Source of the DNA: Komagataeibacter sp. FNDCR2
GTDB lineage: Bacteria > Pseudomonadota > Alphaproteobacteria > Acetobacterales > Acetobacteraceae
Length of the DNA: 64,000 nucleotides
NCBI RefSeq assembly: GCF_021295395.1
Contig: NZ_JAIWOU010000001.1
Coordinates: 1,057,001-1,121,000 of the forward strand
Direction of reading: 5' to 3'
A program made the position numbers and the translations under genes. The notes beneath the pieces are model-generated. The model did no database searches, was not told the DNA's origin, and saw nothing but the letters and a program-made list of their open reading frames with translations. Below are positions 6,758 to 13,261 of this stretch, piece after piece (the first letter of the stretch is position 1; each line of letters opens with the position of its first letter).

Positions 6758-6790
6758 ATGACGAATTTTTACAACAGGACTACACGATGA
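6758..6790 (+). CDS. Candidate 10-codon leader peptide before the PEPC-like gene
   Basis: An ATG at 6758 sits just after GGGAGGGG, the strongest Shine-Dalgarno-like stretch in this gap, and encodes MTNFYNRTTR before a TGA at 6788-6790. That TGA overlaps the ATG of the following gene (ATGA at 6787-6790), the usual geometry of translational coupling. The downstream gene also has its own weaker AGGA 8 nt before its start. The small frame could be chance. It has no repeated codon pattern typical of an amino-acid attenuator. Confidence 0.35.
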   Translation: MTNFYNRTTR

Positions 6791-9591
6791 CCGAAGCCGC
6801 CGCGCGGAATGTGTCCGATCTGCTCCAGCAGGCCGAGCGACTGATAGCCAGCCACGACGAGACTGCATCCGGCAGCCCCGTCATGACGCTGGCGCGCCAG
6901 ATCGGCCGGCAGATGGGCTGCGGCGCCCTGCCGATGGATCAGGTCGAGGATATCGTACGCCTGCTGCGTGACAGGGCGTTTGCCGGGCGTGCGCACCATA
7001 TCGCCACCTATCTCGATGGCCCGGACGAAAAAACCGTGGCCACGCGCATGGGCACGGTCGCGCGCCGGATCGTGCAGCCCGACCCTGATGACAGCCCGGT
7101 GCCGATCGCCCGTTTCCGCGCCGCCATCGAGCGCAGCCGCTTCGCCGCCGTCTTTACCGCGCACCCCACCTTCGCGCTGGCCAACCCGGTCTATGACGCG
7201 CTGGCCGAACTGGCCTCGGCCAATCCCGCCGAACCGCCCGCCCATGTGCCCAGCTTCCTGACGCATCGCCGCGCGGGACCGCCGACGCTGGATGAGGAAT
7301 TCAGCCTGGCCACCCAGGCCATCCTGCGCGGCCGCACGGCGCTGGACAAGCTGAACACCATCCTCCTGTCGGAAGCGCGCACGCATTGGCCCCAGCTCTG
7401 GTTCACGCTGGCCCCGCGCCCCATCATCATGACAAGCTGGGTCGGTTACGACACCGATGGCCGCACCGACATCGGCTGGTGGGACACGCTGCGCCTGCGC
7501 CTGCGCATGAAGCAGCTCCAGCTTTCCCGCCTGCATGACCAGATCGAGCCGGTCACGGCCTGCTGCAACGACCTGCACAACCGCGTCCGGACCGCGCTGG
7601 ACGCCGTGGGCGAACAGATTGCCGCCTGTCCCTCCGGTCCCGACCCCGAAGCGGTATCGCGCTTTGCCGATGTGCTGATCAACCGCAGCGCCGAAGCGCT
7701 GACCAGCACCAACGACCTGAGCGCCACATTCGGTGAGGCTATCGACGCCGCATCGGCGGAGGACAAGATGACCCTGGCGGTCGCGCGCGCGGGTTTCATG
7801 GCGCATGGCCTGTCCGCCGCGCATACGCATACGCGGCTCAATGCGACGCAGCTTCACAACATCGCGCGCCAGCGGCTCAACATTACCGACAGCCCGGACG
7901 TGCCGGCCCAGCGCCGCGCCCTGATCAGCCGCATGAACGAGGCGCTGGATACGGTCGAACCGATCGAGATCGACTTCGGCTCCCTGCTCATGGAACAGGC
8001 CAGCGCCGGGCGGCTCATGATGACGGTGCGCCAGATCCTGCGCCATATCGACCGCACCAGCCCCATCCGCTTCCTGATCGCCGAGACCGAGACCGGCTAC
8101 ACGCTGCTGACCGCGCTGTGGCTGGCGCGCCTGTACGGCATTGACGACATGATCGAGATCTCGCCGCTGTTCGAGACGCAGGACGCGCTGGAAAATGGCG
8201 AACAGATCATCGAGGAAGCCCTGCGCTCCCCCCACTGGCGCGCCTACCTGCAGCGCACGCGCAAGCTCAGCCTCCAGTTCGGCTTTTCCGATTCCGGGCG
8301 TTATGTCGGGCAGCTTGCCGCCACCTATCTGATCGAACGGCTGCGCATCAAGGTATGCGACCTGCTGCGCAAGTGGGATCTCGCCTTCGTCGAGGTGATC
8401 CTGTTCGATACGCATGGCGAGAGCATCGGCCGCGGGGCCCACCCCTACCGGCTGGCCGACCGTTTCGACTATCTCTCCCCGCCGCATGCCCGCGCCCGCT
8501 TCGCGCGCGCCGGTATCCAGATGCGGGAGGAAACCGCCTTCCAGGGCGGGGATGGCTACCTCCTGTTCGGGACGCAGACGCTGGCGGACGCAACGGTCAG
8601 CATCATTGCCGAACACGCCTTCGCCGCGACATCGCTCGACCGCGACCCGGTTTATGACGAACCGGATTTCTCGGCCGATTTCTTCTCCACCATCGCCAAC
8701 GGCATGACCGGGCTGGTGGAAGACCCCGGCTACGCGGCGCTGCTCGGCGCATTCGGGCCGTCGCTTATCGACAAGACCGGCTCACGCCCGTCGGCGCGGC
8801 AGAGCGACGCCGGCTCCACCGTTACCCGCATCAAGCATCCCAGCCAGTTGCGGGCCATCCCCAACAACGCCATCCTGCAACAGCTTGCATGGTGTGCGAA
8901 CACCCTGCAGGGGCTGGGCACCGCGGCCGCCCGGCACCCCGAGACGTTCGAGAGGTACCTGGCCGAAAGCCCGCGCTTCCGCCGGGCGATGGATTTCGCC
9001 GCCCACGGACTGTCCCATTCCGACCACGGGGTGCTGCGCGGCGTGATCCACCTGCTGGATCCCGACCTGTGGCTTGAACGCGCCACCGCGCAGAAGGACC
9101 CGGCCCGGCAGGAATCGTGCCTGCTGCTCATGCACGGGCTGGAAAACCTGGATTTCTGGGCCAGCACGCAGGCCATGTTCCGCCGCATCCAGTCGGACCA
9201 CCTGGCCCTGCGCCGCGCCTGGCCCGAAGCCCCGCGCATGCAACCCGACGAATTGCTGCTGCATGCCATCCGCATCGCGATCATCGAGCATATCTGGCTG
9301 CTTTCCACCCGCATCCCGTATTTCTCGCCCCGCCATGCCTTCTCGCGCGATGTGCTGACGCTGAAGGTCCTGTGCCTTGACATCCCCGCAGTGCTGACCG
9401 AACTGGAGCAGATATTCCCCTACCGCTCGGATGGCGGTTTCGACCTCGACTTCCACGAACCGCATGGCCCCCGTCAGGAAGGGACATACAGCCGTGAATA
9501 CACCGATATTTTCGAGCCGATGCAGCGCCTGTTCCAGACCGTGCGTGAAATCAGCACGGGTGTGATGCACCATGTCGGCGCCTTTGGCTGA
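6787..9591 (+). CDS. ppc: Divergent phosphoenolpyruvate carboxylase-like protein
   Basis: PEPC adds bicarbonate to phosphoenolpyruvate to make oxaloacetate, refilling the TCA cycle. This 934-residue protein aligns along its length with the family (E. coli enzyme 883 residues). It keeps the histidine of FTAHPTF (about H126), the metal-ligand glutamate in PLFET (E463), the aspartate in FSDSG (D502), THGESIGRG (H543, R549), and GSRPSAR and QLRAIPNN, which hold the PEP-binding arginines. It departs at key points. The lysine of the YSDSxKD loop is R505, the arginine of HGRGG is E545, and the C-terminal NTG carboxylate motif is replaced by VGAFG. It may be an active variant with altered kinetics or another specificity. 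The last 20 bp overlap the downstream hydrolase gene. Confidence 0.75.
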   Translation: MTEAAARNVSDLLQQAERLIASHDETASGSPVMTLARQIGRQMGCGALPMDQVEDIVRLLRDRAFAGRAHHIATYLDGPDEKTVATRMGTVARRIVQPDPDDSPVPIARFRAAIERSRFAAVFTAHPTFALANPVYDALAELASANPAEPPAHVPSFLTHRRAGPPTLDEEFSLATQAILRGRTALDKLNTILLSEARTHWPQLWFTLAPRPIIMTSWVGYDTDGRTDIGWWDTLRLRLRMKQLQLSRLHDQIEPVTACCNDLHNRVRTALDAVGEQIAACPSGPDPEAVSRFADVLINRSAEALTSTNDLSATFGEAIDAASAEDKMTLAVARAGFMAHGLSAAHTHTRLNATQLHNIARQRLNITDSPDVPAQRRALISRMNEALDTVEPIEIDFGSLLMEQASAGRLMMTVRQILRHIDRTSPIRFLIAETETGYTLLTALWLARLYGIDDMIEISPLFETQDALENGEQIIEEALRSPHWRAYLQRTRKLSLQFGFSDSGRYVGQLAATYLIERLRIKVCDLLRKWDLAFVEVILFDTHGESIGRGAHPYRLADRFDYLSPPHARARFARAGIQMREETAFQGGDGYLLFGTQTLADATVSIIAEHAFAATSLDRDPVYDEPDFSADFFSTIANGMTGLVEDPGYAALLGAFGPSLIDKTGSRPSARQSDAGSTVTRIKHPSQLRAIPNNAILQQLAWCANTLQGLGTAAARHPETFERYLAESPRFRRAMDFAAHGLSHSDHGVLRGVIHLLDPDLWLERATAQKDPARQESCLLLMHGLENLDFWASTQAMFRRIQSDHLALRRAWPEAPRMQPDELLLHAIRIAIIEHIWLLSTRIPYFSPRHAFSRDVLTLKVLCLDIPAVLTELEQIFPYRSDGGFDLDFHEPHGPRQEGTYSREYTDIFEPMQRLFQTVREISTGVMHHVGAFG

Positions 9592-10444
9592 GGTCGCGCA
9601 GCCCACACGCAACGGGTGGCGGGTCAGTGAGCCGCCACCGCCCTATGACGTGCCCCTGCCGGAAACGCCCACCATAAGGCGGGTCGTGGCGAACAACCCC
9701 GGCCCGATGACCGGCAATGGCACCAATAGCTGGGTGGTCGAGCATGCCGATGGATGCGTGATCATCGACCCCGGCAGCGAGGCGCCCGAACATCTTGACG
9801 CACTGGTCCATGCAACGGGGGGCCGTCCCGTCACGCATATCATCCTGACGCATACCCACCGTGATCACCTTGAGGGCGCGCGGCCACTCGGGGCACGGCT
9901 GGGCGTGCCCGTATGCGGGTTTTACCAGAGCGAGGAACCCGCATTCACGCCCGATATCGGCCTGCGCGATGGCGATATGATCGCAGGGCTGCGCGTGCTG
10001 TACACGCCCGGCCATGCCAGCGACCATATCTGCCTCGAGACGCCGGAAGGGATCATTTTCACCGGCGACCATATCATGGGCTGGTCCACGACCATGGTGC
10101 CTCCCGCCCCCTACGGGTCGGTCCGGCAGTTTCTGGACAGCATGGATTACCTGCGGGCTCGCGACAGCCACCTGCTGCTTTCCGCCCATGGCCCGGCCAT
10201 CACCCGGGTGACGGAGTGCATTGACGGGCTGGTCGCCCATCGCCATGCGCGTGAAAAGAGCATCATGGCCCTCCTTCCCGCCCATCCGTGCACGCTGGAC
10301 GAAATCCTGGACAGCATGTACCACAAGCTCCGCCCCGACCTGCGGCGCGCGGCGCGGCTGAACCTGCATGCCCATCTGGAAAAACTGCACGAGGATGGAC
10401 GGGTCAGCCTGCGCGACGACAGGTGGATGAAGATCGCGCCCTGA
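9572..10444 (+). CDS. Metallo-beta-lactamase-fold hydrolase (LACTB2-like)
   Basis: This is a 290-residue cytoplasmic metal-dependent hydrolase. The N-terminal half has NNPGPMTGNGTNSW, typical of the LACTB2/glyoxalase-II-like branch, the HxHxDH metal motif as THTHRDH (about residue 92), the histidine of TPGHASDH and the aspartate of FTGDH. A C-terminal winged-helix-like domain (TLDEILDSMYHKLRP onward) is also characteristic of LACTB2 relatives. The substrate is unknown; family members include thioesterases, glyoxalase II and ribonucleases. Its start lies 20 bp inside the PEPC-like gene, so the two are probably cotranscribed and coupled. A strong palindromic terminator follows at 10526. Confidence 0.85.
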   Translation: MSAPLAEVAQPTRNGWRVSEPPPPYDVPLPETPTIRRVVANNPGPMTGNGTNSWVVEHADGCVIIDPGSEAPEHLDALVHATGGRPVTHIILTHTHRDHLEGARPLGARLGVPVCGFYQSEEPAFTPDIGLRDGDMIAGLRVLYTPGHASDHICLETPEGIIFTGDHIMGWSTTMVPPAPYGSVRQFLDSMDYLRARDSHLLLSAHGPAITRVTECIDGLVAHRHAREKSIMALLPAHPCTLDEILDSMYHKLRPDLRRAARLNLHAHLEKLHEDGRVSLRDDRWMKIAP

Positions 10445-10662: not shown

Positions 10663-12750
10663 TCAGGCGGACTTCGCCATGATCTCTTCCGCAACGTTGC
10701 GGGGCACCGGATCGTAGTGATGGAACTGCATCGTGAAGGAGGCGCGGCCCTTCGTCATCGAACGCAGGTGCGAGATGTAGCCGAACATTTCCTTCAGCGG
10801 CACCTGCGCACGCACCATAACGGTCGAACCCGAGCTTTCCTGGCTCTGGATCATGCCACGGCGGCGGTTCAGGTCACCCACCACGTCACCCACGTGATCG
10901 TTCGGGGTGGTGACTTCCACGTCCATGATCGGCTCAAGAATGACCGGACCGGCCTTCTTCATGCCTTCACGGAAGCAGGCCTTCGCCGCGATTTCAAACG
11001 CCAGGGCCGAGGAGTCGACATCATGGTACTTGCCGTCCTGCAGCGTGAACTTGAAGTCCACCGTGGGGAAGCCCGCCAGCACGCCGGTCGTGGCCTGCGC
11101 GATGATGCCCTTTTCCACCGCCGGGATGTATTCCTTCGGCACCGTGCCGCCGACGACCTTGTTCTCGAAGGAGATTCCTTCGTTACGCTCGACCGGCGTG
11201 AACTCGATCTTCACTTCCGCGAACTGGCCCGACCCACCGGACTGCTTCTTGTGGGTGTAGGTTTCCACATGCGTCTGGGTGATCGTTTCACGATATGCGA
11301 CCTGCGGGGCGCCGATATTCGCGTCCACGCCATATTCACGGCGCAGGCGGTCGATGATGATGTCGAGATGCAGCTCGCCCATGCCCGACAGGATGGTCTG
11401 GCCGGTTTCCTGATCGGTCTTCAGGCGCAGGGAGGGATCTTCACCCGACAGCTTCTGCAGCGCCAGCGTCATCTTCTCGACGCCGTCCTTGGTCTTCGGC
11501 TCGACCGAGATGTCGATGACCGGGATCGGGAAGGTCATGCGTTCCAGGACCACCGGATCGGCCGGATCGGCCAGCGTGTCACCCGTCTGGCTGTCCTTCA
11601 GGCCGACGAAGGCCGCGATGTCACCGGCATGGACTTCGGACAGTTCCTCGCGCTTGTCGGCGTGCATCTGGTAGATGCGGCCGATGCGCTCCTTGTGGCC
11701 CTTGGTCGTGTTCAGCACGGTGTCGCCCGTCTTCAGCACGCCGCGATAGACGCGCACGAAGGTCAGGGTGCCGTATTTGTCGTTGATGATCTTGAAGGCG
11801 AGACCAGCGAACTTGCCATCCGGGTCAACCGGGATGATCGGCAGCTTCTTCTCGTCGACTTCCTCGTCTTCCGGCGGGGCGATGCGGATGCCTTCCACGT
11901 CGTTCGGCGCGGGCAGGAAGTCGATGACGGCGTCGAGCAGCGGCTGCACGCCCTTGTTCTTGAACGCCGTGCCGCACAGGACGGGACGGAACTCACCGGA
12001 GATGGTGCCCTTCTTGATGCAGCGCTTCAGGGTCGCGACATCGACATCACCCTTGTCGAAGTATTCTTCCATCGCCGCGTCATCCACCGCCAGCGCGGTG
12101 TCGAGCAGGTTCTGGCGGGCTTCCTGCGCCTTTTCCAGCAGGTCGGCGGGAATTTCCTCATCATGGAACTTCGCGCCCAGCTCGCCGCCTTCCCAGACGA
12201 TGGCCTTCATCTCGATCAGGTCCACCACGCCGACGAAGTTTTCCTCGGCGCCGATGGGAAGCTGCAGCGGGATGGCGATGATGTCCAGCTTCTCCTTCAG
12301 CGTGTCGAACGCGCGGTAGAAGTCGGCGCCGGTGCGGTCCAGCTTGTTGATGAAGATGATGCGCGGCACGTTGTACCGGTCCGCCAGACGCCAGTTGGTC
12401 TCGGACTGCGGCTGCACGCCGGCCACGCCTTCGATGATGAAGACCGCGCCATCAAGCACGCGCAGCGAGCGGTTGACTTCGATGTTGAAGTCGATGTGGC
12501 CCGGGGTGTCGATGATGTTGATGCGGTGCCCGGCCCATTCGCACGTCACGGCGGCGGACGTGATGGTGATGCCGCGCTCGCGCTCCTGCGCCATGTAATC
12601 GGTGGTGGTGTTGCCTTCGTGCACCTCCCCGATCTTGTGCGACACACCCGTGTAATACAGGATGCGCTCGGTCGTGGTGGTCTTGCCGGCATCAATATGC
12701 GCGGTAATACCGATATTGCGAATCAGGGACAGATCAGACTTGGCGGACAC
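10663..12750 (-). CDS. fusA: Translation elongation factor G
   Basis: EF-G is the GTPase that drives ribosome translocation and, with RRF, ribosome recycling. The 695-residue protein has G1 [15 protein letters not shown], the switch-II motif DTPGHIDF, and G4 NKLD, followed by EF-G domains II-V, including [15 protein letters not shown] chose the GTG at 12750 ([12 protein letters not shown]) because GGAGGT lies 6 nt upstream; the open frame runs 8 codons further without support. It stands alone after rpmB rather than in the str operon with rpsL, rpsG and tuf, at least within this window. A dedicated terminator follows. Confidence 0.98.
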
Positions 12751-12961
12751 GGGATTACCTCCACAAGACAACACGGGCGCGAAGGGGGAACTGCCCCTTT
12801 CGCGCCTGCCGGAACCGTAAGCTGCTTCCGCCCTCAGTCTTTTTCAACCCGGACGACGCAGACCGGCACAGCGGAACAATGCGCCAGACATCAGTCAGGC
12901 TTTTACAGCGCCGGGCCACCGGCCCGCCCGGATGGGGCGGGGCGGCACGGCCCGTGGCGCA

Positions 12962-13261
12962 TCAGGCTACGGCGGCCTTCTTTTCCTGAACGCGCAGGAT
13001 GCGACGCTTCACCGTCAGGGCTTCGGGCGGCAGCTTGCGGTTCGGGGTGGACAGCAGGAACGCGTCCAGCCCGCCATTGTGCTCAACCGTGCGGATGCCG
13101 TTGGTGGTCATGCGCAGGGGCACCGCCGTACCAAGGATATCGGACAGCAGCGAAGTTTCCTGCAGGTTGGGCAGGAAGCGGCGGCGGGACTTGTTGTTGG
13201 CGTGGCTGACGTTGTTTCCGGTCAGCACGCCCTTGCCTGTGATCTGGCAGCGGCGAGACAT
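12962..13261 (-). CDS. rpmB: 50S ribosomal protein L28
   Basis: L28 is a structural protein of the large ribosomal subunit. The 99-residue protein begins [24 protein letters not shown] (first 12 residues are the diagnostic part) and includes the conserved NIxxxR-like segment [12 protein letters not shown]. Start is ATG at 13261, preceded by GAGGA. The extended alphaproteobacterial form is longer than the E. coli L28 of 78 residues. It is transcribed towards fusA across a 211-bp gap, but whether the two are cotranscribed is unclear. That gap contains a GC-rich imperfect hairpin near 12775-12810. Confidence 0.95.

Follow-up and report, generated by a model that had tools for sequence, protein, structure and literature searches.

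A divergent PEP carboxylase-like protein of Komagataeibacter and its alphaproteobacterial relatives: probable carboxylase activity with a remodelled active site

The open reading frame at 6787-9591 of the window analysed here (64,000 nucleotides of the genome of Komagataeibacter sp. FNDCR2) probably encodes a genuine Mg2+-dependent PEP carboxylase (PEPC), belonging to a distinct alphaproteobacterial subfamily of PF00311 whose PEP/bicarbonate site has been remodelled. PEPC is a carbon-fixing enzyme that converts PEP and HCO3- to oxaloacetate and Pi. Judged from its sequence, the protein is a very divergent member of PF00311, on a large and little-described alphaproteobacterial branch of PEPC. 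Gene content, phylogenetic avoidance, gene context and conserved residues point to PEPC activity. Searches of the open-access literature found no description of such a subfamily, and no report naming PEPC substitutions at K546 or H579.

Identity and family membership

The gene is as follows.

6787..9591, + strand: divergent PEPC-like gene of Komagataeibacter, ATG start, 934 aa plus stop

The protein passes the Pfam gathering score for PF00311 (53.8 bits, cut-off 22.4) and falls far below the cut-off of the NCBIfam PEPC equivalog NF000584/PRK00009 (60.8 bits against 815). The solved structures that it matches with phmmer are PEPCs, at 21-39 bits, and a profile built from 49 homologues retrieved only PEPCs from the PDB, together with one insignificant match. 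No protein family other than PEPC was matched in Pfam, NCBIfam or the solved structures. Identity to E. coli PEPC is about 15-19%, and the closest named relative is a protein of K. melaceti, at 96%. Because several classical residues are absent and the equivalog cut-off is not reached, we file these proteins as a separate subfamily.

Within Komagataeibacter the gene has a dN/dS of 0.08-0.11, and is therefore under purifying selection. Given this low ratio, and the fact that the residue changes described below are shared across 100 family members, these changes are neither chance nor decay.

Alignments

An AlphaFold2 model of the protein, made with 16 close homologues as input, had a pLDDT of only 38, and the residue equivalences given here are therefore taken from sequence. 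Profiles of 83 family members and 30 classical PEPCs, E. coli MG1655 Ppc included, were aligned using hhalign, which gave a probability of 99.7% (E 8e-27) over 632 columns. Conservation was counted in 100 related alphaproteobacterial proteins and in the 30 classical PEPCs, using E. coli numbering as reference. The two groups share a mean identity of about 17%. The scores of the fetched sequences are cleanly bimodal with a gap between the groups, which form separate clades in a tree from the joint MAFFT alignment. In the glycine loop, the register is ungapped and identical in the phmmer, hhalign and joint MAFFT alignments. Around R832 and in the C-terminal tail the hhalign and MAFFT registers differ, which makes the register of the C-terminal region uncertain.

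Residues kept and replaced

The features that bear on the active site are listed below.

7156..7173, + strand: TAHPTF motif; H126 is E. coli H138 (carboxyphosphate His), His in 100/100
7435..7473, + strand: SWVGYDTDGRTDI motif; W218 is W248, kept; R226 replaces N256
7834..7836, + strand: R350, equivalent to E. coli R396 (PEP arginine), kept
8161..8178, + strand: SPLFET; E463 is metal ligand E506, kept
8287..8301, + strand: SDSGR; D502 is metal ligand D543, kept; R505 replaces the loop lysine K546
8404..8445, + strand: FDTHGESIGRGAHP loop replacing FHGRGGSIGRGGAP; H579 becomes D541, R581 becomes H543, G583 becomes E545; R587 is kept as R549 (phmmer, hhalign and MAFFT)
8779..8799, + strand: GSRPSAR; R667 is R699, kept
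8848..8868, + strand: LRAIPNN; R689 is R713, kept
9577..9588, + strand: C-terminal GAFG replacing RN[TS]G; last Gly invariant, N881 not conserved

The jobs of the metal site, of His138 and Arg587, and of the PEP arginines are known from the classical E. coli and maize enzymes. Equivalents of H138, W248, D252, R396, E506, D543, R587, R699 and R713 are kept throughout the divergent family, D252 being aligned with D222 of the Komagataeibacter protein. The metal ligands (E463 and D502), the catalytic pair H138 and R587 (H126 and R549) and the PEP arginines R396, R699 and R713 (R350, R667 and R689) are each present in 100/100 members, and the same residues are also found in 83/83 of the hhalign set. 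A preliminary description of this DNA had held that the metal ligands and most of the PEP-binding arginines are retained, and this is borne out.

The replacements are equally consistent. K546 is Lys in 30/30 classical PEPCs and Arg (R505) in 100/100 of the divergent family. N256 (Asn in 30/30) has become Arg (R226) in 100/100, and G583 (Gly in 30/30) has become Glu (E545), again in 100/100. R581, which binds PEP in PEPC structures, is Arg in 30/30 classical sequences and His (H543) in 99/100 of the divergent ones. The H579 column, invariant in the 30 classical proteins, holds Asp in 80, Asn in 18 and Ser in 2 of the 100 family members. The classical HGRGG motif thus reads DTHGE in the Komagataeibacter protein.

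The preliminary description was right that the loop lysine has become Arg, that the C-terminal NTG motif has been lost (RN[TS]G being replaced by GAFG), and that the loop lysine and the HGRGG arginine are conserved in classical PEPC, where Lys546 and Arg581 are invariant in 30/30. It had read the arginine of HGRGG as replaced by Glu. There is indeed no arginine at that position; however, the residue aligned with Arg581 is His543, and Glu545 sits at Gly583, a shift of two columns. No register of the loop restores the arginine. The clade that it had envisaged as sharing these changes does exist, since they occur in 99-100% of the 100 family members (H579 apart).

Across the family the C terminus mostly reads GAFG, and its final Gly does not vary. 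The aspartate/malate inhibitor site of classical PEPC (K773, R832, N881 and the RN[TS]G tail) was not recovered, although the alignment is uncertain around R832 and at the C terminus; the K773 column holds His, Leu, Phe, Val or Cys. The apparent loss of K773 and N881, which are aspartate-inhibitor residues, fits altered regulation. Aspartate and malate are reported to inhibit a commercial 'Acetobacter' PEPC, whose sequence is not given (PMC5259782); were this the divergent enzyme, they would have to act at another site.

Gene content of Komagataeibacter

In the genome of Komagataeibacter sp. FNDCR2, a cellulose-making bacterium, PF00311 is represented by the gene at 6787-9591 alone. The divergent PEPC is likewise the only such gene in 15 named Komagataeibacter/Novacetimonas genomes, three of which are K. 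xylinus assemblies. Neither a full-length pyruvate carboxylase (TIGR01235) nor ATP-PEPCK was found in the FNDCR2 genome, and the archaeal-type PEPC (PF14010) had no match there or in 31 other Acetobacteraceae genomes. PPDK is present in the FNDCR2 genome.

A study by Benziman in 1969 is said to have had PEP carboxylation in Acetobacter xylinum as its subject. PEPC activity has been measured in extracts of G. xylinus CGMCC 2955 (PMC4047042). These were crude extracts, and the available part of that report assigns the activity to no gene (PMC4047042).

Distribution and co-occurrence

The divergent family is present in 75/100 sampled Acetobacteraceae genomes. Among 289 sampled alphaproteobacterial genomes it occurs in 50, from 27 families, and classical PEPC in 32, from 21 families. 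When 397 genomes from across the phylum were sampled, strong matches came from Alphaproteobacteria only, and no relatives were found in the viral contigs scanned. A family member on a plasmid of Burkholderia pyrrocinia BX1 (L188, 4965-7757), which is 52% identical and annotated as PEPC, is an apparent transfer outside Alphaproteobacteria.

In the same 289 genomes, the divergent and classical PEPCs occur together once, against 5.5 expected (p=0.013), and the divergent PEPC and pyruvate carboxylase once, against 8.7 expected (p=4e-4), in a test that ignores shared ancestry. The three carboxylases covered by the survey (classical PEPC, divergent PEPC and pyruvate carboxylase) are all missing from 162/289 genomes, so that a lack of alternatives counts for less than it seems to. 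Many Acetobacteraceae, like many other alphaproteobacteria, are in this position. We considered whether those Acetobacteraceae without the divergent PEPC use classical PEPC, PF14010 or pyruvate carboxylase instead, and found no support for this: none of those tested has either of the first two, and only 2 have pyruvate carboxylase. For Acetobacter pasteurianus 386B, one version of the annotation is reported to give the PEPC gene as a pseudogene with a frameshift (PMC6915089).

In Methylobacterium the classical and the divergent PEPC are found together in 5/5 sampled genomes (G335, G501, G507, G518 and G581), the divergent protein of one of them being 98% identical to a protein of M. bullatum. 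The two types are therefore not always interchangeable. The classical ppc of Methylobacterium has been described as methylotrophy-specific (PMC2680597), which would leave a putative anaplerotic role for the divergent PEPC.

Some further PF00311-like proteins belong to neither group. Four divergent alphaproteobacterial proteins (L126, L127, L150 and L159, from genomes G192, G108, G358 and G222 respectively) have weak scores and partial motifs, and three of them are about 1060-1160 aa long. A 997-aa PEPC-like protein (L125, genome G355) has the loop HGRGRGDSRGG and an intermediate Pfam score of 147 bits.

Gene neighbourhoods

The gene following the PEPC-like gene overlaps it.

9572..10444, + strand: MBL-fold hydrolase (LACTB2/GloB-like), its start overlapping the end of the PEPC-like gene

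Outside Komagataeibacter, this hydrolase neighbours the divergent PEPC only in some nearby genera of Acetobacteraceae. Upstream of the PEPC-like gene is a divergently oriented DUF445 gene. As clues to function, the DUF445, MBL hydrolase and SufB neighbours proved unexplanatory, none of them recurring beyond nearby genera in the flanks compared. Further downstream, the open reading frame at 10717-13209 (+ strand, 830 aa) has no Pfam or NCBIfam match; its conservation is about 75-90% within Komagataeibacter and 37-65% at two more distant loci.

Some other genomes have neighbourhoods of a more metabolic kind. One of them (G665, L226 2229-9695) has the compact order of a BhcA/Sga-like aminotransferase, a CitE/malyl-CoA-lyase-like gene, mtkA and an mtkB-like gene, followed by the divergent PEPC. 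The mtkA product (malate-CoA ligase beta) scores 716 bits against a cut-off of 604, and the alpha subunit is a CoA ligase, mtkB-like. This run of genes perhaps represents a serine-cycle or beta-hydroxyaspartate-related route. In Phyllobacterium zundukense and one other genome (G237), a sucCD/mtkAB-like CoA-ligase pair precedes the divergent PEPC; their beta subunits do not reach the cut-off specific for malate, and could belong to a succinyl-CoA ligase. On a Sphingobium plasmid, the divergent PEPC is one gene away from enolase, and the B. pyrrocinia copy adjoins glyoxylate/hydroxypyruvate reductase-like and RraA-family genes. Elsewhere, the roughly 7 kb inspected around the divergent PEPC mostly contained none of these metabolic genes.

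Comparison with known carboxylases

The divergent family has whole-length homology with the classical bacterial and plant PEPCs (PF00311, PRK00009; E. coli Ppc 1FIY/1JQN, maize 1JQO), and a similar length (934 aa against 883 aa). The two share the metal Glu and Asp, His138, Arg396, Arg587, Arg699 and Arg713, whereas the divergent family has K546 replaced by R, H579 by D/N, R581 by H, G583 by E and N256 by R, and has no RN[TS]G tail.

In genome G665 the divergent gene takes the place held by the serine-cycle PEPC (ppc/Ppc1) beside mtkA-mtkB in Methylobacterium and Methylosinus (PMC2680597, PMC3615186). The equivalents of K773 and N881 are lost both in the divergent family and in Ppc1 of Methylosinus OB3b (L805 and A912; PMC3615186). 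Methylosinus Ppc1 and Ppc2 are 33% identical, with the catalytic PEP-binding residues reported as conserved in both. We considered whether ppc1 and ppc2 are themselves a classical/divergent pair, which they probably are not, 33% being well above the 17% or so that separates classical from divergent proteins.

The archaeal-type PEPC (PF14010) is likewise a highly divergent type, and the same overall reaction is proposed for both, but it is about 500 aa long compared with 934 aa. Pyruvate carboxylase (TIGR01235) is an alternative anaplerotic carboxylase and an unrelated protein, which rarely co-occurs with the divergent PEPC.

Proposed function and alternatives

We propose that E463 and D502 would hold the metal, and R350, R667 and R689 the phosphate and carboxylate of PEP, while carboxyphosphate/CO2 would be dealt with by H126 and R549, as in the classical enzyme. 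A re-wired loop (R505, H543 and E545), perhaps with R226, would stand in for K546 and R581; the roles of these substitutions, like the activity itself and the altered feedback regulation, are what we infer from the comparisons above. Other residues would thus carry out the same chemistry. In Komagataeibacter the enzyme would supply oxaloacetate anaplerotically, and in some relatives it may serve a serine-cycle/malyl-CoA route.

What speaks against an active PEPC is that four to five positions invariant in the classical enzyme have changed, R581 among them. The changes at K546, R581, G583, N256 and H579 are clade-wide, the groups are separated by a clean score gap at about 17% mean identity, and both genes coexist in Methylobacterium. 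This could suggest a neofunctionalised relative, in which the fold and metal site are kept and the altered loop acts on another substrate, for example another enol phosphate, or on PEP by hydrolysis or by carboxylation with a different acceptor. We consider this unlikely: the PEP arginines, the metal ligands and H138/R587 are invariant, and some genomes have genes for making PEP or using malate linked to it. The preliminary description had left a choice between an active variant, a differently regulated anaplerotic enzyme and a neofunctionalised relative. The comparative evidence favours an active PEPC, whether anaplerotic or serine-cycle, and disfavours the last of these, because the protein is the sole PEPC homologue, and hence the sole candidate of that family, in a genus with measured activity, because it rarely occurs with classical PEPC or pyruvate carboxylase, the other oxaloacetate-forming carboxylases, and because malate thiokinase-like genes or enolase are linked to it in some genomes.

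The loss of classically invariant residues might also be read as the mark of a paralogue, catalytically dead or regulatory, whose role is to modulate another PEPC. However, the searches turned up no second PEPC in the genome for it to regulate, and the low dN/dS and the invariance of the metal ligands and other catalytic residues across 100 sequences make this the least probable reading considered here. It is also highly improbable that the protein is an ordinary PEPC whose classical residues are present but shifted by a mis-registered alignment. The low identity, and an HG dipeptide lying two residues off in the loop, might suggest as much, but the three alignment methods agree without a gap, no shift of the loop gives Arg at 581 or Lys at 546 (and shifting would delete the Arg581 column's counterpart altogether), and 60.8 bits is remote from the 815 expected of the PEPC equivalog.

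Significance

If the divergent family is indeed an active PEPC, as we favour, then the textbook active-site residues of PEPC, treated as universal, are departed from by a family apparently doing the same job. The family offers a natural experiment on which residues a PEPC truly needs. There is a practical consequence for genome annotation and metabolic models, which can wrongly call oxaloacetate synthesis absent, because the curated equivalog model scores the family far below its cut-off; one family member is annotated 'hypothetical protein'. The gene at 6787-9591 is a candidate for the PEPC activity described long ago for Acetobacter xylinum, and the family suggests PEPCs with different feedback control for the engineering of cellulose producers. 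More tentatively, and with rather less confidence than we place in the activity, the subfamily may represent a third mechanistic solution for the carboxylation of PEP (or for a different, related carboxylation), an Arg/His/Glu set and a relocated arginine taking the place of the loop Lys and of Arg581, which binds PEP. Many alphaproteobacteria would then have it as their chief anaplerotic entry, lacking the feedback site at which aspartate/malate usually act.
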